Assembly (NCBI RefSeq): GCF_030269605.1
Contig: NZ_BSTQ01000001.1
Span: 496,001 to 560,000, forward strand
From: Lentzea sp. NBRC 105346
GTDB lineage: Bacteria; Actinomycetota; Actinomycetes; Mycobacteriales; Pseudonocardiaceae
DNA length: 64,000 nt
Direction: 5' to 3'
Shown: positions 41,149 through 57,086 of the stretch, in pieces
How positions within the stretch are numbered: the stretch's first letter is position 1
Layout of the letters: each line of letters opens with the position of its first letter
Translations under genes and position numbers: made by a program
Notes under the pieces: generated by a model
Database searches by the model: none
What the model was told of the DNA's origin: nothing
The model's input: the letters and a program-made list of their open reading frames with translations, nothing else

Positions 41149-41220
41149 CCGGCGGATGAGGTGGTGGCTCGCACCAGAGTTGGTTCGGGCCACCACCTCT
41201 TGCCGGAGACAGGACAGCTC

Positions 41221-43104
41221 ATGACGCCGACCGCGCCACGTCGATGCTTCGTTGGCTGGGCAGGACCGGATCCACACCCACCCCGCACTCCGGCGAACGC
41301 CACGCTCGTCTGGACCGGGAACAAGCCACTGTGGACTGTCGGAGACTGGCGGCCCGACGAGGTCGTGGTTGTCACCCGACCGCAGGCACGCGCAGCGTTC
41401 CTCGGCACCTGCCTGGCAACCGAGGACGAGCTCCGCACCGCCGTGCACGATGCCATCGCGGGGCACGGTTTCGAGGCGCTGCAGGCGTTGCCGGGCTCCT
41501 ACGTCGCCGTGCTCGACGATGGCCGCCGTATACATGTGATCACCGATCGAGCAGGATTGCACCCGGTGTTCTACACCGACCTCGCCGGCAACACGCTGTT
41601 CTGCACCGATGCGCTGATGACGGCCTCAGTGCATCACCGCAGCCTCGCCGCGGCGGTCAACCCTCTGGTGGTGGCCGTCGGGCTGTTTCTTCCGGACCTG
41701 CCAGAGCCTCGCGGCCAGGACAGCGTGTTCCACCGAGTAGGCCGTGCCGGCGCGGCACAGGTTCTGACCATGACGCCACACCGTAGACCGCTGGTGCATG
41801 CGCTACCGCAGAGACACGCAGCGATGAGCCTTGAAGCTGCGGCACCGACACTCGCCAATGCACTGGTCACGGCGGTCCACCGCCGCGTCACCCGCACCAG
41901 CCGGGTCAGCACCGACTTGTCCGGTGGACTCGACTCGTCCTCATGCGCCGTTCTGGCGGCACAGGCCGGTGCCGCACCGCTCGCGGTGACCTACGCGGAC
42001 CCGCGTTCGGTCAACGATGAGGACGTTCGGTTCGCCAGCGCCGTAGCCTCCGCAGAACCCACCCTGCGCCAGCTGGTCAGCATCGGCAGCAGCGCCACGC
42101 TGCCGTTCACCGACATGTACTCGACACCGGTCTGTGACGAGCCCAGCCTCGACGCTGTCATTATCTCCCGGACTCGCCACCGGCTGGCCCCGGCGGTCGA
42201 GCACCGCAGCGAGTGTCACCTCACGGGCTCCGGCGGAGACGCTGTGCTGACCGCGCCCGGACTGAACTACTTGGGCGACCTCGCCCGCACTGATCGCCGC
42301 GCGCTCACGTACGAAGCCAGCGGATGGGCCCGGCTGCGACACCGCCCTGCCCGACACGTGCGCAGGGCGGCGACACGACTGGCCCGAACCAGCTGGCCCG
42401 CCACAATCCAGACACTCACGGCTCAGCTCACCGACCCGCATCTGACAGCACCGGCACGACGCGGACTGGACACTCACCTGTCCTGGGCCGCGCTGTCGCC
42501 GAGCGCCGCCTGGGGCACCCTGCCCATGCGGCGGACGCTCGCAGCGCGACTGGGCACAACGGCAGCATCGCCGCCGGACGGAATCCGGCCCGACAGCGCC
42601 GACGGCGCCGCCTGGCGCGCGGTGCGGTGGCACGGCGCGGCCACCCGCAGCCTCCAGCAGATCGCACGAACCTGGGGACTCATCGTGCACAGCCCATTCC
42701 TCGACAGCCACGTCGTCGACGCCTGCATGGCCGTGCCGATCGTCGAACGGACCACCGTAGACAGGCCTAAACCCTTACTGGCCGCCGCGCTCGGTGATCG
42801 GCTTCCCCCCGATCTGCTGCAACGCCGAACGAAGGGGGACTACAGCACGTGCGAGTACCACGGACTACGGGTCAACACCGACACGCTGCAGGCCCTGCTG
42901 GCCAGATCCCAGCTGTCCGAAATGGACATCATCAACCCGCAAGGTCCACAAGACGCGCTCCGGCAGGGCCTGGCAGGCGCATCCTCACCGATCGGCGCAC
43001 TCGGCTCGGTGATCGCCACCGAAATCTGGCTGCGCTCCCTGCACGCCCTCGACTCCACCAGCTGGTGGCACACCCCGACTACCCGAGAGGAGCTCCCGCG
43101 ATGA
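41221..43104 (+). CDS. Lasso cyclase (asparagine synthetase-like, C protein)
   Basis: About 627 residues, ATP-dependent. It adenylates the acceptor Asp side chain of the core and closes the isopeptide ring. The N-terminal half is a glutaminase-like domain without a catalytic Cys2, and the synthetase half has the PPi loop SGGLDSS (234-240) and EHRSECHLTGSGGDAVL. The ATG at 41221 after AGGA is preferred over a GTG 60 bases upstream. The stop overlaps the B1 start by four bases. Length and order match known lasso C genes. Confidence 0.93.
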   Translation: MTPTAPRRCFVGWAGPDPHPPRTPANATLVWTGNKPLWTVGDWRPDEVVVVTRPQARAAFLGTCLATEDELRTAVHDAIAGHGFEALQALPGSYVAVLDDGRRIHVITDRAGLHPVFYTDLAGNTLFCTDALMTASVHHRSLAAAVNPLVVAVGLFLPDLPEPRGQDSVFHRVGRAGAAQVLTMTPHRRPLVHALPQRHAAMSLEAAAPTLANALVTAVHRRVTRTSRVSTDLSGGLDSSSCAVLAAQAGAAPLAVTYADPRSVNDEDVRFASAVASAEPTLRQLVSIGSSATLPFTDMYSTPVCDEPSLDAVIISRTRHRLAPAVEHRSECHLTGSGGDAVLTAPGLNYLGDLARTDRRALTYEASGWARLRHRPARHVRRAATRLARTSWPATIQTLTAQLTDPHLTAPARRGLDTHLSWAALSPSAAWGTLPMRRTLAARLGTTAASPPDGIRPDSADGAAWRAVRWHGAATRSLQQIARTWGLIVHSPFLDSHVVDACMAVPIVERTTVDRPKPLLAAALGDRLPPDLLQRRTKGDYSTCEYHGLRVNTDTLQALLARSQLSEMDIINPQGPQDALRQGLAGASSPIGALGSVIATEIWLRSLHALDSTSWWHTPTTREELPR

Positions 43105-43367
43105 ATGCCCTCGCGGCACCCTGCACCATCGCGCGCGTCGCCAACGAGGACGGCGCGGTCCTGCTCGACGGAGACAGCGGCCGCATGTACGGCCTCAACC
43201 CGACAGCGAGCACGATCTGGCAGGCCCTGGCCGACGGCCACAGCATCGAGCAGATCAGCCGGGACCTCGCCGCCCGCTTCACAACTACTCCCGACCGCGC
43301 CCTCACCGACGTGCAGGCCCTCGTGGCCCAGCTGCGCGACCACGGCCTACTCACGCCGAAGGCCTGA
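43101..43367 (+). CDS. Lasso B1: PqqD-like RiPP recognition element
   Basis: An 88-residue PqqD-fold protein that binds the leader peptide and delivers it to the protease and cyclase. Visible marks are VLLDGDSGRMYGLNPTAS (beta strands) and the helical TIWQALADGHSIEQISRDLA, with LVAQLRDHGLLTPKA at the end. It is translationally coupled to the cyclase (ATGA) and three bases from B2. It is a discrete B1, as usual in actinobacterial clusters with split B proteins. Confidence 0.92.
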   Translation: MNALAAPCTIARVANEDGAVLLDGDSGRMYGLNPTASTIWQALADGHSIEQISRDLAARFTTTPDRALTDVQALVAQLRDHGLLTPKA

Positions 43368-43370
43368 ACC

Positions 43371-43793
43371 ATGACCGCCCCCATGGCGCTGGACAATTCC
43401 GCCACACCACAGCTCGGCAGCCGCTGGGACCGGTTCGCCGCGAGCCTGTGTCTCACCCTGGCCACCTGGCTGCTGCGACTACGCTTCGGTCACGTGCTGG
43501 CGATCGTCGGACAGATCAAACGAGCATGCCCCCGCGAGGCCGATGCCACCGAGGCAGCACACATGAACGCCGCGATCCGGCTCGCCGGTCGGCACCGCTC
43601 AAACCGGGTCGCCTGCATGGAAGTCTCCCTCGGCACCGTGCTGCTCGCAGCGGCCCGCCGGCTGTCCGTCGACTGGTGCATCGGCGCCCGGCTCATGCCC
43701 TACGGCGCGCATGCGTGGATCGAAGTCGACCGCACTCCCATCGGCGAACCCGATACCCGAGACCGGCCCTATCAGCTCCTGCGACGCATCTGA
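43371..43793 (+). CDS. Lasso B2: leader peptidase (transglutaminase-like)
   Basis: A 140-residue cysteine protease that removes the leader peptide. The active-site Cys82 lies in RVACMEVSLG and His114 in PYGAHAWIEVD, giving the Cys-His-Asp arrangement of the transglutaminase-like B2 family. Residues 21-50 include a hydrophobic helix (LCLTLATWLLRLRFGHVLAI), common in B2 proteins. It lies directly after B1. With the next gene (27 bases on) it completes the A-C-B1-B2-methyltransferase operon. Confidence 0.9.
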   Translation: MTAPMALDNSATPQLGSRWDRFAASLCLTLATWLLRLRFGHVLAIVGQIKRACPREADATEAAHMNAAIRLAGRHRSNRVACMEVSLGTVLLAAARRLSVDWCIGARLMPYGAHAWIEVDRTPIGEPDTRDRPYQLLRRI

Positions 43794-43819
43794 CCGAACA
43801 CAGCAAAAGGACCACCCTC

Positions 43820-44860
43820 ATGACCGCCTATTCGAAGGCACTCACCCAGGCGCTGGCCGAGGTCGACGAAGACACCTTCGTCCGCCGCCCCGACGGCAAG
43901 CTGGTCGCCCAGAGCTCTGCACAGGCCATCATCGCCACCATGATCGACCGCCTCGACATCCAACCCGGCATGCGCGTACAGGAAATCGGCACCGGCTCCG
44001 CCTATTCCACCGCCCTCCTCGCACGCACGGTGGGACCCAGCGGCCACGTCGTCAGCATCGACGTCGTCCCCGAGCTCGTCGACCGCGCCCGGCGCCTCAT
44101 ACCCGCCCACGGCATCGACAACACCACGCTGCTGCACGGCGACGGCGCTCAAGGCGCGCCCGAGCACGGCCCCTTCGACCGCATCATCGCCTGGACCACC
44201 GCCCCGCACCTGCCCGCCGCCTGGATCACCCAGCTCTCCATCGACGGCACGCTTGTCGCCCCCCTTTCCGCAGCACCGATCAGCAAGAGCGGCCTAGGCG
44301 CACGCATCAGGCTCAGCGACGACGCCACACCGCAGGTCGACCAACTCTTCTCCGCGGGGTTCGTCGAGATGTCCGGCGTAGCGCTCGACCAGTGGCTGGT
44401 CCCGCCCTACGGAGTCGACGTACTGCGCCACGACAACCAGCACCGCCCCTGGTGGCTGTCCGGCGAATGGATCCGCAACCCGCATCACTACGTCGACGGG
44501 CAACGCGTCCTCGACGCCCTCATCACCGACCACCGCCACATCGCAGGCCCACTGCAGCCCGACGAGTCCGCCGTCGATTGGCGCGCCTGGCTGCTCGCCA
44601 CCCGACCGGCCGGCCTCACCACCGCGGCGCTGGGTGATCCGCTATGGCGCATCGGCCACACCCACCCCACGGGCGCCGCGCTCACCGACGCACGCACCGC
44701 CACCCAGACCGTGATCACCTCAGATAACGCCGACGCCGAAGTCCTCACTGACTGGGCCGACGCGTGGCGGGCAGCGGGACGACCCGGACTCGCTGATCTC
44801 CACCCACGTCTCGACGCCTTCCACGACGGCTGGGTGCTCCACGCCAAGGCCCGGCGGTGA
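43820..44860 (+). CDS. PIMT-like O-methyltransferase of the lasso cluster
   Basis: A 346-residue homolog of protein-L-isoaspartate O-methyltransferase. The N-terminal half has the intact SAM motif VQEIGTGSAYS (53-63), then GHVVSIDVVPELVDRARRL and FDRIIAWTTAPHLP. The C-terminal 150 residues (WLVPPYGVDVLRHDNQHRPW and onward) are an extension seen in RiPP-associated PIMTs. In the lasso peptides lihuanodin and cellulonodin-2 a related enzyme methylates a ring Asp and drives aspartimide formation. The core here has a matching Asp-Thr. It is the last gene of the operon. Confidence 0.88.
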   Translation: MTAYSKALTQALAEVDEDTFVRRPDGKLVAQSSAQAIIATMIDRLDIQPGMRVQEIGTGSAYSTALLARTVGPSGHVVSIDVVPELVDRARRLIPAHGIDNTTLLHGDGAQGAPEHGPFDRIIAWTTAPHLPAAWITQLSIDGTLVAPLSAAPISKSGLGARIRLSDDATPQVDQLFSAGFVEMSGVALDQWLVPPYGVDVLRHDNQHRPWWLSGEWIRNPHHYVDGQRVLDALITDHRHIAGPLQPDESAVDWRAWLLATRPAGLTTAALGDPLWRIGHTHPTGAALTDARTATQTVITSDNADAEVLTDWADAWRAAGRPGLADLHPRLDAFHDGWVLHAKARR

Positions 44861-45051
44861 GGAGACGAACGGAAGATCACGAGTGCTCGCGTGGCGACGG
44901 GCCTCCGCCGTCACCACGCCCATCCGGACTCTGTTCGGCCAGTGAGAATCCGGGTCACCGGCTGCGCGAATAACAGATGAATGCCGTCTACACCGATAGC
45001 CCCAGCTGGCGGCGATTCCAGGCGAAGGTCCGCAACGAGTCAGGAGAGTTG

Positions 45052-45690
45052 ATGCTCGACACACGCGGCTACCGATGGATCAAGGACGAGCGATACGACG
45101 CAGTCACCATCGCCATCGCAGAGGGAGTATCCGAGGATGCCGTGATCCGGACTTACGGCGGCGACCCTGGCTCGTCCAACCTCGCCACATTCGACCAGTC
45201 GATCGGCATGGTGAACGGCGATGACGACTTCCATCTGCAGACGTTGACCGCGGGCGGGCTCGTAGTCGCCATCGAGAACAACGGATGGACAGGCGCGGTC
45301 GCGGAGATCGCGCGACGCGCCACGGCCGACGGTGGACGCTGGCTCTCGGTGTACTGGAACGGTGCCATCGTCAACTTCACGGTGATCTACGCGGTCAACG
45401 GAACGATCGAGGGCTGGTACAACGACCGTTCGTGCGGCCAAGGCAAAAAGCCGGCATCGACTCCCGAGTGGGACGAAGGTGTCTCGTCCCAGGAAGGCTG
45501 GTCGATCGCCCCCTCCCTTGCGCTTATGGAACACCTCATGGGCGTCAAGATCATGGAGGAGTGGTTTACCACACCGCAGCGGACCACACGCATACCAGAC
45601 GTTGACAGCCTCCTGCCCCAAGTTGTTCTCGGGAAGAACATTTCTGGTGGCGACATCATCCAAAGCGACCCAGCAGCGTGGACGCCTTGA
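45052..45690 (+). CDS. DUF6461-like hypothetical protein
   Basis: About 212 residues from ATG 45052, which follows AGGAG by five bases; an earlier in-frame ATG at 44977 has no ribosome site. It contains DAVTIAIAEGVSEDAVIRTY, GGLVVAIENNGWTGA and SVYWNGAIVNFTVIYAVNG, a pattern I associate with DUF6461 (function unknown, single-domain cytoplasmic proteins). It begins 190 bases after the lasso methyltransferase on the same strand. A role in immunity is possible but only by position. Confidence 0.65.
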   Translation: MLDTRGYRWIKDERYDAVTIAIAEGVSEDAVIRTYGGDPGSSNLATFDQSIGMVNGDDDFHLQTLTAGGLVVAIENNGWTGAVAEIARRATADGGRWLSVYWNGAIVNFTVIYAVNGTIEGWYNDRSCGQGKKPASTPEWDEGVSSQEGWSIAPSLALMEHLMGVKIMEEWFTTPQRTTRIPDVDSLLPQVVLGKNISGGDIIQSDPAAWTP

Positions 45691-45838
45691 CGTGACTGCC
45701 ACAGAGCAGAACGGGTCGTCCGCTCTCGATACCGGCGATGCTTTCCCACCAGCCGTTCAACGGCGCCCTCTAGAGGGGGAGCCGCACGGTTCAGGGAGTC
45801 CTTGCAGGCATGATCATCTGATCGGATACTTTGCGTGA

Positions 45839-46477
45839 ATGGGGTTCCGTGGTGACAGGTGGCTGCAGTGTCAGAAGCGTGCGGACGGTCTGTTGACCTC
45901 CACTAGCGAATGGTCAGGGTCTATCGGAGAGCACCACGTTCGGTCCCTTGTGGCGTTAGTGATCTATGCGCGCGCGGCACTCTTCGAGCAACCAATCACA
46001 GCAGTCGGTGTAGCGGAAGTTCGCTATGCCTTGGGCTGTGGCGATCATGTGCGGGCACACATCCTGGCTGGACTCAGTCACGTTGGTCATTGCCTAGGTG
46101 TCGGCCAACCGTATGCCGTGCTGGACTCTGTCGCCCACGCCTGGTGGCGTCTGGCCACCGCGCGTGCGGAATGGCCTGATGCCGTAGTTCGTGGCATGAC
46201 CGAGGCTAACGCCAGCACGCTCGTACTCGCGGCACGATCGGCGGCACGCATCCTCGACCGTACGTTGGTGAAAGAGCAGGGAGGTTGGCAGCTCGGCGAT
46301 CTAGTAAAGGTCCGCTTCGGGGACTATGCAGGGCAGTCGGTTCGGTTGATCGGTGCGTGGTGGCGCGAGGATCACGAGCTGGAGCGCATCGCTTCAGGAC
46401 GGCCGATCGCATATGACGCGCGACAAGAGAGCGGTACGTCACTCGCCACGCTCCGTGTCTTCCCGGACGAGCTATAG
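45839..46477 (+). CDS. Hypothetical protein with C-terminal KOW-like segment
   Basis: Up to 212 residues, start uncertain: ATG 45839 has no ribosome site and a GTG near 45949 is possible. The centre is helical (AHAWWRLATARAEWPDAVV). The C-terminus reads LGDLVKVRFGDYAGQSVRLI, with the Gly spacing of a KOW motif. It lies 180 bases upstream of the small-peptide operon, same strand, and could belong to it. No further family assignment. Confidence 0.55.
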   Translation: MGFRGDRWLQCQKRADGLLTSTSEWSGSIGEHHVRSLVALVIYARAALFEQPITAVGVAEVRYALGCGDHVRAHILAGLSHVGHCLGVGQPYAVLDSVAHAWWRLATARAEWPDAVVRGMTEANASTLVLAARSAARILDRTLVKEQGGWQLGDLVKVRFGDYAGQSVRLIGAWWREDHELERIASGRPIAYDARQESGTSLATLRVFPDEL

Positions 46478-46657
46478 CGCGTGATCGCGCTCAAGAATCG
46501 CTCATCTGGCCGTACCGTCTTGTCGTCCCACGTTACGGATGGCAAGCAGGACGACAACCTGTGTCGCCGAGCGGAACCCAGTCGGCGGTACAAGGCGTCG
46601 GCGGCGTTCCGTAACGTCGCGAGGCAGTGATCGTTTGACTCGATGAGGGGTGGAGTC

Positions 46658-46747
46658 GTGGCCGAACCAGTCAAGAAGGATCAGAGCCAGAAGAAGGTTT
46701 GGCGGCGTCCGCAGTGGCGGGCCCGGAACGTGCGGACACACTGCTGA
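46658..46747 (+). CDS. Candidate RiPP precursor peptide ending in His-Cys
   Basis: A 29-codon frame (GTG 46658; AGGGG seven bases before; an in-frame ATG at 46643 would add five residues). The peptide starts AEPVKKDQSQ and its last 18 residues are KKVWRRPQWRARNVRTHC. It has two Trp five residues apart, a run of Arg, and C-terminal His-Cys. It lies first in an operon with a PqqD-like protein and two radical SAM enzymes, where a short substrate peptide is expected. It overlaps the next gene in another frame. The substrate role is inference. Confidence 0.55.
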   Translation: MAEPVKKDQSQKKVWRRPQWRARNVRTHC

Positions 46748-47466
46748 CCGTCCATGGGCAGTCGGTACCTGCCCTAATTCCTACTTCCTCACTTCCGGAT
46801 GCGTTGCCCGAGGTCGAGGAGGGCTTGCTGCGTCGTGAACCGTGTACGCGGTTTGAGGACTTCCTGCCGGCCGTCGTGGCGGACGCGCTAGAGCTAGAAC
46901 TTGCTGACGGCCTGGTGTACGAGCGCGTCGAACTGGGTGAACTGACCGCTCAGTGGCGAGGGCGTCGGCCACTCGGCGATGTCTACTTTGGACCGATGCA
47001 ACGTCGCGACGGTTGGTCGACCGCCACATGCGTTACCGATGCCCTGGCATTCTTCGAGTCCGCTGGATTCGTGGAGTGGCTGGGACGACTGGCGGGCGAG
47101 GAACTGGAGTTCCTGCGCCCCGTTACGGCCTACCGCCTAGAACGCGGCGATCGAATCTGCCTGCATGACGACATGTCTGATCCAGACCATGCCGTATCGG
47201 TGGCATATAACCTCAGTCGCGACTGGACATCCGTCGATGGCGGATGCACGATCTTCGGCTCTGTCACTGGTATCACTCCGTTGCCCACACCGGTCGATTC
47301 GCCGATCCCCCTGCAGCGGTGGGAGATCACCGACGAGGAGGTCTTCGTGCCCAGCTTCAACTCCCTGTTGGTGATGAAGTTGGGTCAGGAGTTTGCCCAC
47401 GGCGTTGACGAGGTCACCGGGAGTCGGCCCCGTCTGTCGCTGGTGGGCATCTACGGTCGCCGCTAA
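46699..47466 (+). CDS. 2-oxoglutarate/Fe(II)-dependent oxygenase
   Basis: About 255 residues from a TTG at 46699; a GTG at 46714 is an alternative. The double-stranded beta-helix core has the iron triad: His156 and Asp158 in RICLHDDMSDPDH, and His234 in GQEFAHGVDEVTG. Arg245 in RPRLSLVGIYGRR is placed to bind the 2OG carboxylate. This matches the prolyl-4-hydroxylase-like group, which hydroxylates peptides or small molecules. Its 5' end overlaps the candidate precursor by about 50 bases in another frame, so the two are tightly linked. A peptide substrate is likely. Confidence 0.83.
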   Translation: MAASAVAGPERADTLLTVHGQSVPALIPTSSLPDALPEVEEGLLRREPCTRFEDFLPAVVADALELELADGLVYERVELGELTAQWRGRRPLGDVYFGPMQRRDGWSTATCVTDALAFFESAGFVEWLGRLAGEELEFLRPVTAYRLERGDRICLHDDMSDPDHAVSVAYNLSRDWTSVDGGCTIFGSVTGITPLPTPVDSPIPLQRWEITDEEVFVPSFNSLLVMKLGQEFAHGVDEVTGSRPRLSLVGIYGRR

Positions 47467-47508
47467 GCCGACCCAAATACGCCCCATCAAACGGGTGAGG
47501 AGGCCTTG

Positions 47509-47796
47509 GTGTCAGAACGGTACAGGTTGGCTGAGAACGTCGTGCGACGTTCCACGACCACTGGGCTGAGCATGCTCTTTGACCGGCGCAAGGGCGTTAT
47601 GTATGAGCTGAACGAGACCGCCTCTGCAGTGGTCGACCTCCTTGATGCAGGCACGGACACCCTCGAGCGAGTCGTGACCGCATTGGCGGAACAGTTCGAC
47701 GCTGCGCCTGAGGAGATCAGCGGGGACGTACAGCGCATGCTCGCGGACTTCACCGACGGTGGCCTAGTCGTCGTGCATGAGCACGAGGTCGCGTGA
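47509..47796 (+). CDS. PqqD-like peptide-binding (RRE) protein
   Basis: A 95-residue PqqD-fold protein. RRSTTTGLSMLFDRRKGVMY then ELNETASAVVDLLDAGTDTL and VQRMLADFTDGGLVVVHEHE give the winged-helix RRE. It presents a leader peptide to the radical SAM enzyme. The GTG at 47509 follows AGGAGG by five bases. The stop overlaps the SPASM enzyme start by four bases (GTGA), the usual coupling of PqqD with a PqqE-like partner. Confidence 0.9.
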   Translation: MSERYRLAENVVRRSTTTGLSMLFDRRKGVMYELNETASAVVDLLDAGTDTLERVVTALAEQFDAAPEEISGDVQRMLADFTDGGLVVVHEHEVA

Positions 47797-48971
47797 GGGA
47801 CATGTCCGCGCGGGCGGAACCAGCCGACTTCCAGCTGCCCGAGTCAGCCGTGCCGATCCTCGTGCAACTCGGCCTCACCTATCGATGCAACCTCGCCTGC
47901 AAGCACTGCTATGCGCTCTACCGACGCGACCGGAACGAGTTCACCCTCGCGGAGATCCGGACACTGGCCGACGAGCTCTATGACGCCGGATCGGCTGCTG
48001 TTGTGTACTCCCACGGCGAGAACATGATCAGGCGTGACTTTCACGACGCGGCAAGCATCTTCGCAGAGCGAGACTTCTATCAGACGCTGATGCTCAATGG
48101 CTTCTATGTGCGTTCCACTGTGGACGCCACTCGCCTTGCCGAGGCAGGTATCAACCGCACGATGGTGTCGGTCGACAGCGCCGATCCGAAGGTACACAAC
48201 GAAGTGCGTGGCAAGGACGGAGCATTCGACCGCGCCCTCGAAGCTGTGGATCACTTGCTGGCGTCCGACATCAATACGGTCGGGTTCTCCTGCACCATCG
48301 ACAAGCACAACTACGACGACATCGATCTCATCGTTGAGCTTGCACTAGAGCGCGGCGTACACGCCGTCAGCTTCATGCAGAACCGCTACAACCTGCGTGA
48401 CGTGTTCGACCGCACGCTGTGGGCTCGATACCAGCAAGTATGTCGCGACCTGTACGAACTGATGCTTCGCCACCGAGGTCGGTTGGACATCTACACCCAC
48501 GATCCGTTCATGTTGACCCTTCTCGACCAGCGGCTCGACGACAACGCCGCGAGAGAAGACTTCATCGGCGCCAACCTCTGCAACGTGGGCACGAGCATGG
48601 TATCGATCGATCCAGTCGGCAACGTCACAGGCTGCAACTTCATCAACGAGTCGATCGGCAATGTTCGTGAGGAACCCTTCGCCGACATCTGGTCCCGACT
48701 GGTGGATCGGTACTCGGATCGCACCGATCCGCCACGTGGCGCCTGCACGGACTGTTCTGCCCTGTCGGCCTGTATGGGCGGCTGCAAGGCCTACCACTAC
48801 GTCGACAAGTACGACGAGCGATGTGGCCAGGTGCGTTTCGGCGAGCCAACGCCGCACGGCCTCCCGGCCGCCACCGTCGAGGCACTTATCCCGGACCGAG
48901 CGGCTGGCGTGTTCCTGGGGATGCCTCGTCTGGAGACGCGTCTGACCGCGGACGGCGAGGCGGCGCGATGA
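47793..48971 (+). CDS. Radical SAM/SPASM peptide-modifying enzyme
   Basis: A 392-residue enzyme. The SAM [4Fe-4S] motif is CNLACKHCY (Cys32, 36, 39), followed by the barrel (MVSVDSADPKVHNEVRG). The C-terminal SPASM domain has cysteines in LCNVGTS, VTGCNFINE and CTDCSALSACMGGC for two auxiliary clusters. SPASM enzymes paired with PqqD-like proteins form C-C, C-S or C-O links in peptides or epimerise residues. The two Trp of the short peptide at 46658 are plausible sites. It is coupled to the next gene by ATGA. Confidence 0.92.
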   Translation: MRDMSARAEPADFQLPESAVPILVQLGLTYRCNLACKHCYALYRRDRNEFTLAEIRTLADELYDAGSAAVVYSHGENMIRRDFHDAASIFAERDFYQTLMLNGFYVRSTVDATRLAEAGINRTMVSVDSADPKVHNEVRGKDGAFDRALEAVDHLLASDINTVGFSCTIDKHNYDDIDLIVELALERGVHAVSFMQNRYNLRDVFDRTLWARYQQVCRDLYELMLRHRGRLDIYTHDPFMLTLLDQRLDDNAAREDFIGANLCNVGTSMVSIDPVGNVTGCNFINESIGNVREEPFADIWSRLVDRYSDRTDPPRGACTDCSALSACMGGCKAYHYVDKYDERCGQVRFGEPTPHGLPAATVEALIPDRAAGVFLGMPRLETRLTADGEAAR

Positions 48972-50359
48972 GGGTGATGTTCGTCAACCCCCACTACCCA
49001 CACGATCCACGGACGCTGCTGCTGCATCCACCGCTGTGCTACGCCTACATGGCCACGCACCTCAAGGCGGCAGGTCATGACGTGCTGCACTGCGACCTGC
49101 CGTTCTTGGGCAACGATCCGCAGAAGCTCGCCCAGTGGCTTGATGACTACCAGCCAGACCTTGTCGGGATTACGTCGGTCGCGCAGTCCTACTGTCAAGC
49201 GCTGGAGTTGGCTCAGCTCGTCAAGCAAATCCGCCCGCAGGCGAAGGTGGTCTTCGGCGGCCCACACGTCACCTTCATTGCGGCCGAATGCCTCGCTCGG
49301 CACACATCCGTGGATTTCGTGCTCCTCTACGACGCCGAAACCTCCCTCGTGGAGTTGTGCGCCGCGCTGACCGATGGCCGAGGAGAGGAAGCCGCACTGC
49401 GGCGAGTGTCCGGACTCTGTTTCCGCGCCGGCGAGGGCACCGTGACGACGCCACCCGCCCCACCTGTCATGGACCTCGATCAGGCTGGCCGCCCTGACCG
49501 ATCGATCTTCGACCTCGCTCCGTATCGGGACTATGACTACGAGACTGTGGTCATGACCGCTCGTGGGTGTCCGAGCCGGTGCACTTTCTGTTCAACCACC
49601 ATCGCCGGACGCCGCGCTCGCTGGCACAGCCCCAGCCACGTGTGCGACGAACTAGAGGAGGTCATCGACCTCGGGTTCGAGTCGGTCTTCTTCGGCGACG
49701 ACACATTCTCAGGCGACCCCAAGCGCGCGGTCGCGATCTGCGAGGAGATCGTCCGCCGCGACATCCGGATCCCGTGGACCTCCAACATGCGCGCACAGGA
49801 CGCACGTCCGGTTGTGCTGGATGCCATGCGTGCTGCCGGCGCCTACCGGGTCTTCATGGGATTCGAGTCGATCCAGCGGGCAACCCTGCGTCTTGTGCAC
49901 AAGGGGGCGACCCCAGAGCGAATGATTACCAAAGCTCGACTGGTGCAGGAAGCTGGATTGGAACTGCACGCCTCGTTTATCGTTGGTGCTCCAGGAGATA
50001 CTCACGCCACCCTGTCCGCGACGCTGGACTACATCCGGTTGCTCAACCCGACAGTGGCGACGTTCAACGTGATGGAGCCCAGACCCGGCACCGATGTGTA
50101 CAGCAACCCCGACCGCTACGGCATAACGATGCCTGATCCGTTGTGGTACGAGACCGCCTCCTGGCTGGATTTGCCTGTCTCCCACACGGAGCAGTTGTCG
50201 CAAGTCGAGATTCGCGACTGGGTGGACCGTTGCTACATGGAGTTCTGCAGTCCTGACTTCCGCTCGTCCGCGCACCTTGCCCGGTTGGGCGACATCGAGG
50301 AAACCTGGGCCCGTGACGGCCTGGCCGTGCCGGACGTCGCGGGCGCGGCATGCGGGTAG
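48968..50359 (+). CDS. Cobalamin-dependent radical SAM enzyme
   Basis: A 463-residue class B radical SAM protein. The N-terminal Rossmann domain (VMFVNPHYPHDPRTLLLHPP, PDLVGITSVAQSYCQALELA, VVFGGPHVTF) is the B12-binding fold, without a DxHxxG motif. The radical SAM site is RGCPSRCTFCST (Cys201, 205, 208), followed by FFGDDTFSGDP. These enzymes methylate unreactive carbons or carry out ring rearrangements. A second modification on the same peptide, after the SPASM enzyme, is the simplest role. It overlaps the following gene by ten bases. Confidence 0.92.
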   Translation: MRVMFVNPHYPHDPRTLLLHPPLCYAYMATHLKAAGHDVLHCDLPFLGNDPQKLAQWLDDYQPDLVGITSVAQSYCQALELAQLVKQIRPQAKVVFGGPHVTFIAAECLARHTSVDFVLLYDAETSLVELCAALTDGRGEEAALRRVSGLCFRAGEGTVTTPPAPPVMDLDQAGRPDRSIFDLAPYRDYDYETVVMTARGCPSRCTFCSTTIAGRRARWHSPSHVCDELEEVIDLGFESVFFGDDTFSGDPKRAVAICEEIVRRDIRIPWTSNMRAQDARPVVLDAMRAAGAYRVFMGFESIQRATLRLVHKGATPERMITKARLVQEAGLELHASFIVGAPGDTHATLSATLDYIRLLNPTVATFNVMEPRPGTDVYSNPDRYGITMPDPLWYETASWLDLPVSHTEQLSQVEIRDWVDRCYMEFCSPDFRSSAHLARLGDIEETWARDGLAVPDVAGAACG

Positions 50360-51354
50360 CCCTCATCGGAAGCGGAGTCGCTGGACGATCGCATCTACTT
50401 GACCTGGTGACCAATTCCCGGTTCGACGTCCGCGCTGTGGTCGCGCAACATCTCGAGCAGGCGCGACGAACTGCCGAAGAATTCGCGATACCCGCGGCTC
50501 ACAGTGACGTGACCGAGATGCTGAGCAGCGTGAATCCGGATGCGGTCGTCGTGGCCACGCCGCCATCGGCCACGCCTTCCATCCTGCGCACCGTGATCGA
50601 CCACGGCTGCCTGGTCCTTGTGGACAAGCCCGCCGGCAGCCGCAGCCGCGAACTGCGAGAAATTGTTGCCGACAGCCCCGATGCGTCAGTAGTGGTGAGC
50701 TACAACCGTCGTTATCAAGTTCCCGTGCGTGCTTGCCGGGCGCTGCTCAGTGACGTCGACACGGCAGACGTCCATCGAATCCGCTGCACCTGGCGCGGCC
50801 CGTTCGCCGCCCGCTACAACAGCTCCGCCACCCACCGACACGCTGTCCGATTTGGCGACGGAGTACTACTGGACACTGCCAGTCATGTGCTCGATACCCT
50901 GAACTATCTCGGCGTTGTACCTACGACGGTTGTTGGGGTGCGGGCGCGGCAAGGCGGCGCGGCGGGAGCAGACATCGAGGTCGACATGCAGCTGACCACA
51001 CATCAGGGCGCGCGAGTGCAGATCAGCATCCGCAACGACGACGCTGTTGATGGCGACCTCTGGTGTGTTGAGTTCAGCGGTGGGCACGGCCAGCTGGACA
51101 TGACGCGCGATGTTCTCGTCGGAACGTGGCACGGCCAGGCAGTCTCCGTGGGCGCTGCCGACGTCCGGCGGCCCGTCGATGACTTGCTCGCCTTGGCGGA
51201 CGGTACGGATGTGTGCGGCGCAACACTCGCCGAAGCCGTCCGCGTTCTTGAACTATTGGACAGTGCCCGGCAGCACGTCGAGAATGCCCATGAACTGCGG
51301 CGATGGCAGCGCCCACGGGCTAAAGCCCTCGGTCGACTCAACGGCGCATGCTGA
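50350..51354 (+). CDS. Gfo/Idh/MocA-family oxidoreductase
   Basis: A 334-residue NAD(P)-dependent enzyme. The dinucleotide motif GSGVAGRSH is at residues 7-15, and the EKP-type motif appears as LVDKPAGSRSREL with Asp in place of Glu, so the catalytic Lys remains. The C-terminal domain (FGDGVLLDTASHVLDTLNYL) holds the conserved His region. Family members oxidise or reduce sugars, imines and bilins; in a peptide pathway it might reduce an imine or dehydro residue. It overlaps both neighbours (10 and 7 bases). Confidence 0.88.
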   Translation: MRVALIGSGVAGRSHLLDLVTNSRFDVRAVVAQHLEQARRTAEEFAIPAAHSDVTEMLSSVNPDAVVVATPPSATPSILRTVIDHGCLVLVDKPAGSRSRELREIVADSPDASVVVSYNRRYQVPVRACRALLSDVDTADVHRIRCTWRGPFAARYNSSATHRHAVRFGDGVLLDTASHVLDTLNYLGVVPTTVVGVRARQGGAAGADIEVDMQLTTHQGARVQISIRNDDAVDGDLWCVEFSGGHGQLDMTRDVLVGTWHGQAVSVGAADVRRPVDDLLALADGTDVCGATLAEAVRVLELLDSARQHVENAHELRRWQRPRAKALGRLNGAC

Positions 51355-51968
51355 TCACGATCGAGGGCGTTTCTGGAGCGGGAAAGACCACACTGACCCG
51401 TTGCCTCATTGCGCGGTTGCGCGAAAGCGAGCAGGACGTCATCGACCTCGCTGAGGTCGAGCAGATCAGTGCCGACCCGGCCTGGCACTTGGGACAACTC
51501 ATGCGCGCGATGACCACGCAATTCGCTGACCGTGAGGCCGCGTTGCTCTATACCGCGCGAACAGCTGGCCGCGTCCGCCTCGCCTGCGAACGGATGGCCG
51601 ATTGGGCCATACCGGTAGTGGTCGCTGACAGGCTCGGCCTGTCGCTGAGCGTCCAGTTGCGCAGAGCAGGGCTCGATACCTCGACTCGCCATGCTCTGTA
51701 CGCAATGGCGATGAGCGGCCTACCTCAGCCAGTGACAGTCCTGCTGGAGGTCAGCCATCACGAGCACGTACGACGCTTGCGAGCCCGCGGCCATCGGCCA
51801 CTCCCTGAGCCGACGTTCAACGATCAACGGAACCTCTTTCGGTCCGAGTACGACCGCTGTCAGCAGCCGAGATTGCTCGTCGATACAAGCGGCATGGACG
51901 CCTCCGAAGTCGAGGCTGCCGTGCTCAACCTGATCTGCCCGTTGACAGCAGGCCCGGCGACGTCATGA
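51348..51968 (+). CDS. Thymidylate-kinase-like P-loop protein
   Basis: A 206-residue nucleoside-monophosphate-kinase fold. The P-loop is EGVSGAGKTT (6-15). VVADRLGLSLSVQLRRAG replaces the DR(Y/F) motif of dTMP kinases, and LLEVSHHEHVRRLRARGHR is the usual lid-region sequence. The active site differs from housekeeping dTMP kinase (no DRYxxS). It may phosphorylate a pathway intermediate. It overlaps the upstream gene by 7 bases and the next by 4. Confidence 0.8.
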   Translation: MLITIEGVSGAGKTTLTRCLIARLRESEQDVIDLAEVEQISADPAWHLGQLMRAMTTQFADREAALLYTARTAGRVRLACERMADWAIPVVVADRLGLSLSVQLRRAGLDTSTRHALYAMAMSGLPQPVTVLLEVSHHEHVRRLRARGHRPLPEPTFNDQRNLFRSEYDRCQQPRLLVDTSGMDASEVEAAVLNLICPLTAGPATS

Positions 51969-52525
51969 AACGGATAGTCCTCACCGGTGGCCACGGAGTC
52001 GGCAAATCCTCGCTGCTGCTCGTGCTCGAGGAACGCGGCGAGCATGTGGTGTTCGAAGCGGCCCGGGACGTGCGACTGCTCGCCCGCTCCCGCGGTGTCG
52101 CCTTTCCCGATGACCAACCCGACTTCGAATCGCGTGTCCTTGCACGGCACCTCAGCCGCGAGGACAACGTGCCCACACACGTTCGACGTCTGTTCCTAGA
52201 CCGCGGCGCCCCTGATCACCTTGCCTACGCCACCGTCGGACGCTGGCCGCTCACCGCCGCCGAGATCACCGCATGTCGAGCTCGGCGCTATGACCTGATA
52301 GTGCTCGTCGACGGTCCACCACAAGGTGTGCCAACACTCGATCGGGTGGAGCAGCGATTCTGTGAGCGCCTCGTGGACGCACTCGAGGAGACCTACACGC
52401 AGCTCGGCATGCGCCTGCACCGGCTCGCGTGGGCCGATGTAGACAGCCGAGCCGAAACGATCTTGAAACTAGTCTCCGATACCCTAGGCGACTGTGGTCT
52501 CCATCCGCGTGACCGCGACCCATGA
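51965..52525 (+). CDS. AAA-type P-loop ATPase/kinase (NadR/AAA_28-like)
   Basis: A 186-residue protein. The P-loop is VLTGGHGVGKSSLL (6-19), then FEAARDVRLLARSRGVAFP and RLFLDRGAPDHLAYATVGRW, the pattern of small AAA_28/NadR-like ATPases, some of which act as kinases. The role here is unknown; it and the previous protein form a pair of P-loop enzymes in the operon. The next gene, a HisRS, follows after 19 bases. Confidence 0.8.
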   Translation: MKRIVLTGGHGVGKSSLLLVLEERGEHVVFEAARDVRLLARSRGVAFPDDQPDFESRVLARHLSREDNVPTHVRRLFLDRGAPDHLAYATVGRWPLTAAEITACRARRYDLIVLVDGPPQGVPTLDRVEQRFCERLVDALEETYTQLGMRLHRLAWADVDSRAETILKLVSDTLGDCGLHPRDRDP

Positions 52526-52544
52526 CACGAAGGAAGCCAGAACC

Positions 52545-53855
52545 GTGCCCGAATACCTGCCAACCGCGCCCTACCGTGGGACCAGGGACTTCCTGCCCCA
52601 GGAGATGTCGATTCGCACGCAGGTATTCCATCGGCTTTACGACGTCATCGAGCGCTACGGCTTCCTCCGCTACGACGGCCCCATCCTCGAGTCGGCGGAG
52701 ATCTACGAGGCCAAGTCCGGCCGCGAGATCGCCGACCAGCAGCTCTACACCCTCACCGACCGCGGCGGGCGGCGCTTGGCGCTGCGCCCCGAGATGACTC
52801 CGTCGGTCGCCCGGATGATCGCCGGTAACGCCGGGCAACTGCAGTTCCCTGTGCGTTGGTACACCAACGTCAATTGCCACCGCTACGAGCGCCCCCAGCG
52901 CGGGCGGGTACGCGAGCACTGGCAGATCAACGTCGACATCTTCGGCTCAGATAGTGCCAGCTGTGAGATCGAAATCTTCGAGCTGATCCACGACATGATG
53001 GCCGCCCTAGGCGCCAGCACGGACATGTGGAAGCTGCGCGCCAACGACCGAGTCCTGCTGGAAAGTATCCTCACCGACATCGTCGAGATCCCAGCCGACA
53101 AACTCCGTGACGTCTCCTCGGTGGTCGACCGCTGGGAGAAGTACCCGCGGGAACAGCTTGCAGAGCAGGCGAGCGAACTCGGCGTCAGCGACAAGCAGTT
53201 CGACCGACTCGCCGAGGCTCTGACCAGCGGGGCATCGGTACTAGACGACATTTCCCAGGACGCGCGCGAACGGTCCCACCTGATGCACGTGCTCAACAGC
53301 AGCGCGGCCGACCTAGTGATCTTCGATCCACTGATCGTCCGCGCCTTCGAGTACTACACCTCGACCGTGTTCGAAGTGTTCGACGCCAATCCAGCCAACA
53401 ACCGGTCGCTATTCGGCGGTGGCCGCTACAGCAACCTCGCCAGCCTGTTCACGCCCCAGCAGATTCCCGGAATCGGCTTCGGCATGGGCGACGTCACCAT
53501 CCACGACTTCCTCGACACTCACGGCCTGCGGCCCGAGCCACGCAGTGAAGTCGACGTTGTCGTCATTCCACTCGACGAGTCACTCGCCGAACCGGCCCGC
53601 CAGGTCGCACGGCAACTTCGGGGAGCTGGCCTGCGCACCAGTACACCGCTGGAGGCCCGCAAACTCGGCAAGGAACTTGCCCGCGCCAGCCGCGCCGGAG
53701 CGCAAGCCGTCGTGATCATCGGACCCGATGAGTGGAACGCCGGCACCGTCACCGTGCGTGCCATGGCGACCAAGGACCAACGGCAAGTACCAGTTGCGTC
53801 CGCAGTGGAGGCCGTGCAAGTGATAACCGCTGGAGCGGAGACGCCCAGCAGCTGA
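52545..53855 (+). CDS. hisS: Histidyl-tRNA synthetase in the peptide operon
   Basis: A complete 436-residue class II synthetase. It starts with PYRGTRDFLPQEM (GTG 52545, with AAGGAAG nine bases before). The His-A/motif 2 region is HRYERPQRGRVREHWQINVDIFG, the second HisRS motif is RAFEYYTSTVFEVF with GGGRYSNL, and an anticodon-binding domain ends the chain. All visible catalytic parts are present. A housekeeping hisS would not usually sit in such an operon, so this may be a second copy: a self-resistance version or a supplier of His-tRNA for peptide extension. Which of these is unknown. Confidence 0.9.
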   Translation: MPEYLPTAPYRGTRDFLPQEMSIRTQVFHRLYDVIERYGFLRYDGPILESAEIYEAKSGREIADQQLYTLTDRGGRRLALRPEMTPSVARMIAGNAGQLQFPVRWYTNVNCHRYERPQRGRVREHWQINVDIFGSDSASCEIEIFELIHDMMAALGASTDMWKLRANDRVLLESILTDIVEIPADKLRDVSSVVDRWEKYPREQLAEQASELGVSDKQFDRLAEALTSGASVLDDISQDARERSHLMHVLNSSAADLVIFDPLIVRAFEYYTSTVFEVFDANPANNRSLFGGGRYSNLASLFTPQQIPGIGFGMGDVTIHDFLDTHGLRPEPRSEVDVVVIPLDESLAEPARQVARQLRGAGLRTSTPLEARKLGKELARASRAGAQAVVIIGPDEWNAGTVTVRAMATKDQRQVPVASAVEAVQVITAGAETPSS

Positions 53856-53870
53856 CCGGCGGGACGGCGC

Positions 53871-53904
53871 GAATGGCACCCGTGCGTGCGGCCGGGTGCC
53901 ATTC
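53871..53904 (+). terminator. Terminator of the radical SAM/HisRS operon
   Basis: A perfect 12-bp stem (53871-53882 with 53893-53904) and a 10-base loop, 15 bases after the HisRS stop. It marks the likely end of the operon that begins at 46658. Confidence 0.75.
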
Positions 53905-54710
53905 CTGTTGGCGAGACACCACCACAAGGCGCAGGGCGCCCTGGTTCGTTCACAAGCTTGCTGATCAAGATGTTTGGTCCAACGGTGTGAAAGGGCTCGT
54001 CAGAGCTCGCGTGATCCTGATGTCCTTGCTTCGCGTTGTTGTCGAGTAGCTCATGCACTGAGGTGTGGGTGGCCCGGACATGATCGGCGTACTGGGTTTG
54101 TCTGCGATAGCCGCCTCGGGCAGACAGAACTGATTGTGACCGCGAGAACCGACCGCACGTGTCCGCGTCTTCTGACCGCAGTAAATGATCTCCGACATGA
54201 TCAATGTCGCTCAGAAGCGGTCGCACTGGCCATCCTCGCGGCCCAGTGTCGGCGATGCTCCTCGCGCCTCCTCCAGGTCGTTCGTCCTCGCTTCGCTGCG
54301 GGCGCTCCACCTGGACCTGCGACGTCGCACCGGCCGAAGGCAGCCAGGATCGAGAAAGGCTCAACTTTGCCCCGCGGCTCAGGTGCGGTCACCGTTCGCG
54401 AGCACAAGCCTCTCGGCCGAGCGAGGCGCGAGCGGTTCTCGCGGAGAAACGCGGTCGAAACTCGCGAACAGAACCACAGAACCATTCGGCGCCGCCAGCG
54501 AGTTCTGCCAAGTCGACGCGGCATCTTGCCGACTAGCACCTCGAGCGACCCCGTCGACCGCACGGACTGGTACTCCTCTCTGCCCCGACCCAGCTCACCT
54601 GAGTTCGCGATCACCAGCCACACGGGTGAAGCCGCTCCCGAGATCGGAACATCGTCTGGATCAGGCAGAGCCTGCTTTCCCTTAGTACCGGCCGTCATCG
54701 GCTATGAGTG
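53905..54710. other. Non-coding or decayed stretch
   Basis: About 800 bases between the terminator and the convergent EAL gene. Several long open frames overlap here on both strands, but none has a ribosome site, a recognisable motif or consistent codon bias. It may contain remnants of a lost gene. I support no feature in it. Confidence 0.4.
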
Positions 54711-57086
54711 CTATGAGGCCTCGACAAGGGCTTGCATGCTGGCGTGGGCGTCGAGCCGTACACGGCGTGAGATCTCCTGGGGTGGCGCGGAGGGACCGAC
54801 GAGCTTTCCTTGGATGAACCGGGCTTCCAGGGCTTGGGCGGCGTGCAGCTGGTCAAGGGTGTCGACGCCTTGCAATGTCACGGTCAGCTCCAGATTGTGA
54901 GCCATCGATACTAGTGCTGACGTGATGGCGTGACAGCATTGATGTTCCGGTTTGGTCCCGCCGAGCCGGGAAGTCAGGCCGGGAGGGACCGCGATGCCCT
55001 CGATCGTGACCTGGGGCAGGAGGTCGAACCGTTCGAAACTGCTGCCGAAGTCGTTGAGACGCAACGGTATCCCGAGGGCACTCAGGCTCACCAGGTGCTC
55101 GACCTTGACTCCCCTCCACGTGGGGGAGCCTGCGTGGTTGAGACCTAGGCGCAGGTGCTCAGGGCGAGCTCGGCTGACGGTGAGGACGGTGCGTACGTCG
55201 TCGACGAGCCGATCACCTTGGGTCAGGCGGCGGGGGATGTTGATGGCGACGAACGGCGTATCCGAGCCCAGGGTGTCCCACCAGATCCTGGCTTGGCGTG
55301 CGGCTTGCTGAAGCATCCACGGCGTGAGGCCGAGGTCAAGTCCGATGTCGTCGGCCATCGTGAGGAGATCGTCGATGCGCAGGTCGCCGTGCTCGGGATG
55401 ACGCCAATGCACGGCCGCTTCGGCACCGGCCAGCGTCGCGTCGTGGGGATCGACGATAGGAATGTAGGCCAGTTCGAGCTCCCTGTTGTCGATACCCGCC
55501 GGCAGCTCCGCGAGCAGATGGCTGCGCCACTGGTCGCCTTCGCCGCGGCGGGTCTCCGTGATGACCGGTCGCCGTCGGGTCGACGCCGCGGTGTGCTGCA
55601 GCACCTGCTCCGCCCGCAGCACCAACTCTTCCGCCGTGACCGCGCCCGCCGCTGCACGCACGACACCGATCCGCGGCATCACGGCGAATTCGTAGTCGCC
55701 CAGATGGACGGTCTCGCTTAGCCAGCCCGACATGTTCTCCACGAGCTCGTCCACCCGCCCCCACATGGCAGAGTCGGTGATCACCACGCAGAAGCTCGTT
55801 CGATCGTGGCGGGCCACCAGGTCCGCCACGCCGCCGGTGGCTCCCCTCAGTCGGGAGGCCAGCACCTTGATCAAGTTCTCGCTGACCGTCGATCCCAGCG
55901 CGCCCGTGATCGAATCGATCTCGTCCAGCCCCACGACGCAAAGCCCCACGGTGCCCCGCGGCCCCGCGGCGCGCAGGACGTCGTCGAGCCGGCGTTGCAG
56001 GCATTGCCGATTGGGCAGCTCGGTCGTGTCGTCGCGGGCTGCCGCCTGATCGAGTCTGGAATGCCACAAGTGCGAGTCGGTCACGTCGTCCATCACGACG
56101 TGGGCATGACCGGAGCCATCCCGGTCGGGAACCCATGTGATGGTCATACTCGCCCACAGCGAACAGTCGCGGCCAAGAGCGAGGAGTTCGATCGCGTCGC
56201 AGGACACGGTGCGGTGATGACGCAGAACCTCCTCGCAGGCTCGCTGCACTTGGCGCGCATCGTCCTCGTTCAGGACGAAGTCAGTGAGCGTTCGACCGAC
56301 GATACGATCACCCGACTGTCCAAGTAGGATCTCCAGTGCGTGGTTCGCCTGCGTTATCCGCCCTTGATCGTCCATGAGGCACATGCCCAGGCGTGAATCG
56401 GGAAACGACGATTCGAAGCGGTCAGGATCGGCGACAAGTGCCTCGTGTTGTTTGCGATGGGCGCGGTCGACGGCGTCGGCGATGGCCATCTGCTCGTCGA
56501 GGACCCGCTGACGGGCGCCGTCGGTGAAGCCCTCCGCGAGGCCGCCCAGCAGGCGTGCCCGCTGTTCGGGATCCGGGTGGGCGGACGTGGCCTGGATCTG
56601 TTCGGTGAACGGCCCGAGCACTTCCAGCGTGTGGCGCAGCACTGAGGTGCTCAGCTCCAGGTCGTAGGCCAGCTGCCGGCCGATCAGCGCAGGAGATAGG
56701 CGGGCGCTGACAGGGTCGGCCAGCCAGCAGGCCATTTGCTGCGCGAAGTCCATGAGTTGCGTGCGCAGCTGCGTGTGGTCCATCGCGAGATAGCTGTTGC
56801 GCGCGATCGCCACCACCCAGGCGTCGACCGTCGATGCGACGACCTCGCTCACAGGCTCGAGGGCCTCCGCCGCAGCGGGATCAACGGCATCGTGACGGCG
56901 GGCGTTGTCGGCCGAGTGGCCCCCGAGGATCGCCTCCAGGACCATCTGACGCTTCGTGTCATCAACCGGCCGCCAGGTCAGCGCATGCACCTGTGCGACG
57001 TAGCTGGACATCCGCTGATCCACCTGGCGGTGCGAGTACGCCCTCGCGCCCGGAATCCACCGCCGAAGCCATCCGATGAAATCCAT
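54711..57086 (-). CDS. PAS-GGDEF-EAL protein with degenerate catalytic motifs
   Basis: A 791-residue soluble protein. An N-terminal helical sensor region is followed by a PAS domain (RITQANHALEILLGQSGDRI), then a GGDEF-type domain whose active site reads RHDRTSFCVV instead of GGDEF, then an EAL-type domain with GAEAAVHWRHPEHG for the EAL loop and LNDFGSSFERFDLL for the DDFG(T)G loop. Several metal ligands are absent, so neither synthesis nor hydrolysis of c-di-GMP is expected. It may bind the nucleotide as a receptor. GAGGAG precedes the ATG. It follows an ECF sigma gene by three bases. Confidence 0.88.
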   Translation of the reverse strand: MDFIGWLRRWIPGARAYSHRQVDQRMSSYVAQVHALTWRPVDDTKRQMVLEAILGGHSADNARRHDAVDPAAAEALEPVSEVVASTVDAWVVAIARNSYLAMDHTQLRTQLMDFAQQMACWLADPVSARLSPALIGRQLAYDLELSTSVLRHTLEVLGPFTEQIQATSAHPDPEQRARLLGGLAEGFTDGARQRVLDEQMAIADAVDRAHRKQHEALVADPDRFESSFPDSRLGMCLMDDQGRITQANHALEILLGQSGDRIVGRTLTDFVLNEDDARQVQRACEEVLRHHRTVSCDAIELLALGRDCSLWASMTITWVPDRDGSGHAHVVMDDVTDSHLWHSRLDQAAARDDTTELPNRQCLQRRLDDVLRAAGPRGTVGLCVVGLDEIDSITGALGSTVSENLIKVLASRLRGATGGVADLVARHDRTSFCVVITDSAMWGRVDELVENMSGWLSETVHLGDYEFAVMPRIGVVRAAAGAVTAEELVLRAEQVLQHTAASTRRRPVITETRRGEGDQWRSHLLAELPAGIDNRELELAYIPIVDPHDATLAGAEAAVHWRHPEHGDLRIDDLLTMADDIGLDLGLTPWMLQQAARQARIWWDTLGSDTPFVAINIPRRLTQGDRLVDDVRTVLTVSRARPEHLRLGLNHAGSPTWRGVKVEHLVSLSALGIPLRLNDFGSSFERFDLLPQVTIEGIAVPPGLTSRLGGTKPEHQCCHAITSALVSMAHNLELTVTLQGVDTLDQLHAAQALEARFIQGKLVGPSAPPQEISRRVRLDAHASMQALVEAS

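Follow-up and report, generated by a model that had tools for sequence, protein, structure and literature searches.

The mycofactocin precursor MftA is conserved at its C-terminal residues and ends in Val-Tyr. The mycofactocin radical SAM enzyme performs an oxidative decarboxylation and forms a carbon-carbon bond on the tyrosine and valine of its precursor (PMC8326336), and microcin C, a ribosomally synthesized and post-translationally modified peptide (RiPP) with a very short precursor, inhibits aspartyl-tRNA synthetase (PMC7136475). Peptide aminoacyl-tRNA ligase (PEARL) pathways use a peptide as scaffold and carry out their chemistry at its C-terminus, and AcmD (an alanyl-tRNA synthetase) and SbzA (an isoleucyl-tRNA synthetase) are extra synthetases inside biosynthetic clusters that serve as self-resistance copies (PMC12945691). 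Here we describe a nine-gene locus (46658-53904) that shares features with each of these systems and encodes a second histidyl-tRNA synthetase (HisRS), in a 64,000-nucleotide stretch of Lentzea sp. NBRC 105346 (NCBI RefSeq GCF_030269605.1, contig NZ_BSTQ01000001.1, positions 496,001 to 560,000), called the window below.

As in mycofactocin biosynthesis (MftA/MftB/MftC), the locus combines a short peptide, a protein with a RiPP recognition element (RRE) and a SPASM radical SAM enzyme, for which MftC is the best NCBIfam model; unlike MftA, the window peptide ends in RTHC, and a B12-binding radical SAM enzyme, a 2-oxoglutarate (2OG)-Fe(II) oxygenase, a Gfo/Idh/MocA oxidoreductase and HisRS are added. 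Identity with mycofactocin was rejected, the SPASM enzyme scoring 129.8 bits against an MftC cut-off of 265 and the peptide, with its THC end, matching no NCBIfam family. The terminal cysteine is encoded and not added as in PEARL pathways, and a PEARL identity was likewise rejected, since Pfam gave no LanB-like match for the window proteins or for those accessory proteins that were scanned. The very short ribosomal precursor and the proposed synthetase target recall microcin C, but Pfam detected no MccB-type adenylating enzyme among the nine window proteins, and immunity, there provided by the MccF peptidase, is here proposed to come from the second HisRS. The extra synthetase itself resembles AcmD and SbzA, although the pathway around it is based on a ribosomal peptide. 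No characterised match was found in the literature searched, in line with an earlier note on this DNA, made from its sequence alone, which held that the gene combination fits no known RiPP class.

Judged by its sequence, the locus is a RiPP pathway and a real gene set, present in a few scattered bacteria of two phyla. On balance its product probably inhibits HisRS, and the clustered HisRS would be a second copy, insensitive to the product, that shields its maker. We favor this reading because HisRS is constantly present, because its active-looking copies are unlike those of their hosts and have more than one origin, because it survives without the pathway, and because no tRNA-using enzyme was seen. 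Both halves of the self-resistance idea have precedent, one in AcmD and SbzA and the other in microcin C. In the proposed pathway PqqD would present the peptide, the SPASM and B12 enzymes would rebuild its C-terminal end, where Arg-Thr-His-Cys is invariant, the 2OG enzyme would hydroxylate, and the Gfo/Idh protein would transfer hydride; peptidases would release the product, which would sit in the HisRS active site as a mimic of histidine or histidyl-adenylate. The radical SAM chemistry of mycofactocin makes it plausible that the SPASM enzyme acts on the Cys or His at the C-terminus, and since histidinol is a mild HisRS inhibitor (PMC4695845), a warhead in the form of a reduced or decarboxylated histidine end would make sense. 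The invariant Thr-His-Cys also fits the earlier suggestion that the product derives from the His-Cys end. If correct, this would be a ribosomal-peptide pathway aimed at HisRS, and the resistance copy would tell beforehand which enzyme is hit; since trypanosomal HisRS is unlike its bacterial and human counterparts (PMC9978631), a natural inhibitor with selectivity would be worth having. The literature searched (including passages of PMC7916415, PMC4695845 and PMC9978631), outside which most subscription papers lie, yielded no natural product whose cluster includes a HisRS resistance copy.

Precursor peptide and distribution of the gene set

The first gene (46658..46747, + strand, as are all features of the locus) encodes a 29-residue peptide whose C-terminal 15 residues are WRRPQWRARNVRTHC. 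This core is found in all 12 clusters described below, each peptide ending in WR[RK]Px[WS]RARN[VI]RTHC, and peptide length ranges from 20 to 53 residues, given the starts chosen here. The alignment of ten peptides has 12 invariant residues: 11 fall within the last 15, and the other is a Lys three before the Trp. Codons vary in 14 of the 15 core columns at these ten loci, against 4 of 15 for the amino acids. A purine-rich stretch resembling a ribosome-binding site lies 5' of the peptide gene in the nine actinobacterial copies compared; none was seen ahead of the Mucilaginibacter copy. Because of this stretch, and because amino acids are kept while codons vary, we regard the small reading frame first pointed out in the earlier note as a real gene, and the conserved precursor and the PqqD RRE likewise bear out the ribosomal peptide substrate that it proposed. 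The shortest peptides have almost no leader; recognition and core would therefore share the same 15 residues. Two kinds of radical SAM enzyme, SPASM and B12-binding, would here act on one peptide that can be as short as 20 residues.

Beyond its own genome, the SPASM gene had no match in 298 genomes of the order (1e-40) or 394 of the class (1e-45). A scan of an 84,980-species collection returned 438 relatives, with 78 loci listed; among these listed matches nine loci stand at 58-81% identity and the other 69 at 33% or less. The nine hosts are Saccharothrix sp. ALI-22-I, six Nocardia species, Nonomuraea sp. G32 and, from another phylum, Mucilaginibacter psychrotolerans. Two further Nocardia clusters (G916 and G980) and the window bring the total to 12. 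All 12 contain PqqD, SPASM, B12, Gfo/Idh and peptide genes, and 2OG and HisRS genes are each present in 11, both misses falling in N. seriolae, where the contig ends. Peptide, 2OG enzyme and HisRS thus recur with the SPASM gene in this neighborhood comparison, at 12/12, 11/12 and 11/12. Since both strands carry genes of the Mucilaginibacter cluster, the genes are not kept together as one frozen operon. Carriage on plasmids was rejected, since plasmids gave only MftC-like or other SPASM matches at 33% identity or less, only Pseudomonas 2OG matches (45% of the query) and no B12 match at 1e-60; carriage by viruses was rejected too, viral contigs giving a single 20% match, in a search that did not extend to the phage collection.

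The AAA_28 gene is found in four of the clusters (window, Saccharothrix, Nonomuraea and Mucilaginibacter) and the thymidylate-kinase-like (TmpK-like) gene in three by tblastn, Mucilaginibacter having a P-loop protein in the same setting by eye. Neither gene has a match in the Nocardia clusters, and by sequence comparison these two kinase-like genes are accessory. What the earlier note treated as one nine-gene system is accordingly real in its core set and not indivisible, two of the nine being dispensable. Other genes vary with the host: a PhyH oxygenase occurs in all seven uncut Nocardia clusters and a carbamoyltransferase with a methyltransferase in two Nocardia clusters, and a DUF6687 protein (a family of unknown function, with no paper found in the literature searched) is shared by Nonomuraea (L015 15123-16118) and Mucilaginibacter (L016 12507-13499), 43% identical across phyla. 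In N. beijingensis NBRC 16342 (L017 8676-9793) the SPASM gene is in two frames and the HisRS gene open, by decay or sequencing error. The Nonomuraea cluster also holds, on the opposite strand (L015 13055-14296, -), an HPr-kinase-like protein scoring 22 bits, below the cut-off.

The clustered histidyl-tRNA synthetase

The window HisRS (52494..53855, with a probable start at GTG 52545) is full-length, scoring 341.7 bits for TIGR00442 against a cut-off of 286.75, and its anticodon domain is present. At least two HisRS genes were matched in each of the ten host genomes, one of them inside the cluster in nine; in N. seriolae the additional gene, of the Nocardia type, sits on a separate short contig. 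Identities were calculated over aligned columns only, with columns for seven of the ten cluster copies and with spurious N-terminal extensions on some housekeeping rows. The cluster copies fall into three lineages, namely window/Saccharothrix/Nonomuraea (66-88% identical), Nocardia (73-83% over the columns tabulated) and Mucilaginibacter, with 24-28% between lineages and also 24-28% between a cluster copy and its own host's housekeeping copy (seven of ten hosts tabulated).

A 36-row tree, which carries a long-branch warning, places the cluster copies in three separate clades. The Nocardia cluster clade shares its side of the tree with the housekeeping type of Mucilaginibacter, and the Mucilaginibacter cluster copy shares its side with E. 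coli and the actinobacterial housekeeping type. The tree was built from 8 of the 14 loci L126-L139 and 10 of the 19 loci L140-L158, leaving out four Nocardia housekeeping rows and two extra Saccharothrix HisRS-like proteins. It is from the tree and the sequence type, and not from percent identity, that we take HisRS to have probably been recruited separately. The Mucilaginibacter housekeeping HisRS is 71-82% identical to those of the ten family relatives used, and a second HisRS gene above cut-off occurs in one of 61 genomes of this host's family, the cluster-bearing one, second matches in the others being pieces of one frame. That a eukaryote-like HisRS is the resistant one was considered and ruled out, as the Mucilaginibacter cluster copy is canonical bacterial and its housekeeping copy is not.

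The cluster enzymes look functional from their residues. Those at E. coli positions 83 (E or D), 85, 113, 127, 259, 263 and 264 and the GGRY motif, which we take to be catalytic and histidine-binding, are kept in the nine of ten cluster copies tabulated and in the HisRS of G438 (below); cl_Nbeijingensis and four housekeeping rows from Nocardia are absent from the table. The solved chains nearest the window HisRS are 3hri and 3hrk, presumably trypanosomal HisRS. Histidine and adenylate binding by the T. brucei enzyme is described as very different from that of bacterial and human enzymes (PMC9978631). Two more HisRS-like genes, which resemble neither the housekeeping nor the cluster copies, lie about 10 kb apart on another contig of the Saccharothrix genome (G651, L108 and L112).

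HisRS of this type also occurs where no SPASM gene was found. Among 150 Nocardia genomes, searched with SPASM at 1e-100 and HisRS at 1e-60, eight have both, one has HisRS only, none has SPASM only and 141 have neither. G1005 (L170 3165-6674) retains HisRS, the methyltransferase and a C-terminal portion of the carbamoyltransferase; there was no SPASM match at 1e-100 and no core gene matched in this interval. Genome G438 carries a HisRS 72% identical to that of the window directly behind an AAA_28 gene that is unmatched over its first six residues, the flanking genes looking unrelated by eye. It gave no SPASM match at 1e-45, if it is part of the class sample as its handle suggests, and no B12 match at 1e-10, in a search that had no positive control; HisRS of its type was found at 1e-60 in no other genome among 35 of its order.

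Alternative explanations

HisRS might instead be biosynthetic, giving His-tRNA or histidyl-adenylate to the peptide or a tailored intermediate, or itself transferring histidine, a role that we consider possible but doubtful. It would suit an enzyme that is intact down to its anticodon domain and as constant as the 2OG gene (11/12 each), and AcmF and SbzA are synthetase-like aminoacyl transferases, SbzA being a resistance protein as well (PMC12945691). Yet no LanB/PEARL, GNAT/FemX or cyclodipeptide-synthase-type enzyme was recognized among the scanned proteins (some flanking genes unscanned), one pathway would be served by three HisRS clades, G438 and G1005 have HisRS with no SPASM match, and the histidine is already encoded in the peptide. 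The extension of the peptide with His from His-tRNA, raised in the earlier note, lacks a candidate enzyme among the scanned proteins, and the descent of HisRS and its persistence without the pathway fit self-resistance better. A redox cofactor similar to PQQ or mycofactocin, with HisRS as passenger or regulator, is a rather improbable product: the near-invariant precursor, the PqqD protein and the MftC match would fit, but occurrence is very patchy (its own genome only in the order and class samples), tailoring genes vary by species (PhyH, carbamoyltransferase, methyltransferase, DUF6687) as is typical of a secondary metabolite, and HisRS is left unexplained. Still further from likely is an anti-phage or stress system in place of an antibiotic pathway. 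The B12 enzyme (48968-50359) and the TmpK-like protein (51348-51968) do match the candidate defense pair PDC-M51A and PDC-M51B in PADLOC, but weakly (51.5 and 29.3 bits) and as general folds; the Nocardia clusters have no TmpK-like match, and peptide and RRE point to RiPP chemistry.

Several observations weigh against self-resistance itself. Divergence alone is a weak sign, since Gfo/Idh, 2OG and PqqD diverge nearly as much as HisRS; the tree behind separate recruitment carries the warning given above; and the argument can count no more than about three recruitments and two genomes with HisRS alone, one of them a fragmented assembly (G438, 850 contigs, 93% complete). Of 148 genomes sampled from the phylum of the Mucilaginibacter host, 109 encode a HisRS with 37-45% identity to its cluster copy, so this copy is foreign to the family and not shown to be foreign to the phylum. 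It is moreover a canonical bacterial enzyme, belonging broadly to the same type as the housekeeping copies of the actinobacteria (38-40%), and lineage alone therefore cannot explain insensitivity. No exporter or peptidase was recognized among the nine genes. SbzA both resists and transfers, so a HisRS with a biosynthetic role is conceivable, and we infer the product, the target and the inhibition from gene content.

Modifying enzymes and the Gfo/Idh tail

Alignments of the pathway enzymes cover ten of the 12 clusters (G916 and G980 not added), with nine rows for SPASM, N. beijingensis being left out for its two frames, and nine for 2OG, where L013 has no row because its contig ends. Pfam and NCBIfam confirmed the domain labels that the earlier note gave to the 2OG, PqqD, SPASM, B12 radical SAM, Gfo/Idh, AAA_28 and HisRS proteins. 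The PqqD-family RRE (47506..47796) scores 58.3 bits against a Pfam cut-off of 23.4, and its core MLFDR.KGVMYELNE.AS is invariant in the ten aligned. The SPASM enzyme (47793..48971) keeps CxxxCxxC and all seven SPASM cysteines in the nine aligned, the B12-binding enzyme (48968..50359) keeps CxxxCxxC in ten, and the 2OG oxygenase (46699..47466) keeps the HxD...H triad and a downstream Arg in nine. We assume for these metal-binding and active-site residues their customary roles; with motifs intact, the pathway enzymes look active. Identity to the window protein is 55-88% for the two radical SAM enzymes, 23-60% for Gfo/Idh, 34-75% for 2OG and 39-75% for PqqD. Structure models fit the families, with a mean predicted local distance difference test (pLDDT) score of 85.8 for Gfo/Idh and 88.5 for 2OG, and the 50 folds listed for the 2OG model are mostly prolyl hydroxylases or the related Tpa1/OGFOD1. 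This prolyl-hydroxylase-like enzyme could act on the proline that is invariant in the peptide.

The Gfo/Idh/MocA oxidoreductase (50350..51354) ends in a peptide-like tail, WQRPRAKALGRLNGAC (51304..51354), that is predicted to be disordered, the model placing disorder exactly at residues 319-334 (pLDDT below 50). A tail of the form W..P..[KR]...C closes the cluster Gfo/Idh in all 12 clusters, with W319, P322, R323, K325, G332 and C334 invariant in the ten aligned, and none of the eight other Gfo/Idh matches in the window's own genome has such a tail. By this conservation the tail is a real motif. It shares with the peptide the W..P..[KR] spacing and the terminal Cys. The two align with modest significance (4 to 1690 of 5000 shuffles doing as well across 16 pairs; joint column permutation, 73 of 3000), and the pattern W..P..[KR].{7,9}C*, which was written post hoc, occurs in the window only in the peptide and the tail and not once in 1,225,544 bases of other DNA (19,968 frame ends). 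The likeness is suggestive, and an oxidoreductase ending in a mimic of the substrate peptide is a puzzle. One version of the inhibitor proposal, unlikely in our estimate, is that the tail reproduces the substrate within the enzyme itself, and that the machinery making the peptide-derived HisRS inhibitor would bind it and might modify it too; Gfo/Idh would then be both catalyst and second precursor or scaffold.

Locus boundaries and neighboring genes

The nine frames lie where the earlier note had placed them, overlapping or at most about 40 bases apart. Both possible starts of the 2OG gene (TTG 46699 and GTG 46714) are inside the peptide gene. The TmpK-like P-loop protein (51348..51968) had been called dTMP-kinase-like; it exceeds the Pfam cut-off for thymidylate kinase (33.3 against 27 bits) and stays below that of the NCBIfam dTMP kinase model (42.9 against 83.25 bits); the AAA_28 P-loop ATPase or kinase (51965..52525) follows it. 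The hairpin reported at the operon end (53871..53904), 3' of the last gene, does fold, with a 12-bp stem in which 53871-53882 pairs with 53893-53904, and is only moderately better than shuffled sequence (z -1.9; 7 of 200 shuffles as good). No RNA control element matched Rfam at the gathering threshold in 42000-56000.

A lasso-peptide identity for the nine genes was rejected, since the PqqD protein (P0003) scores 49.4 bits against a lasso cut-off of 70 and the lasso genes of the window form a separate cluster at 41161-44860. Nor were these counted as part of the nine-gene set, the upstream genes tried, P0010-P0012 (43448-46477), finding no tblastn counterpart in any of the nine relatives, in a comparison that did not include the cyclase, PqqD and B2 genes. 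The lasso-peptide cluster comprises an albusnodin/ikarugamycin-family cyclase, a lasso PqqD, a B2 protease and a PIMT-like methyltransferase.

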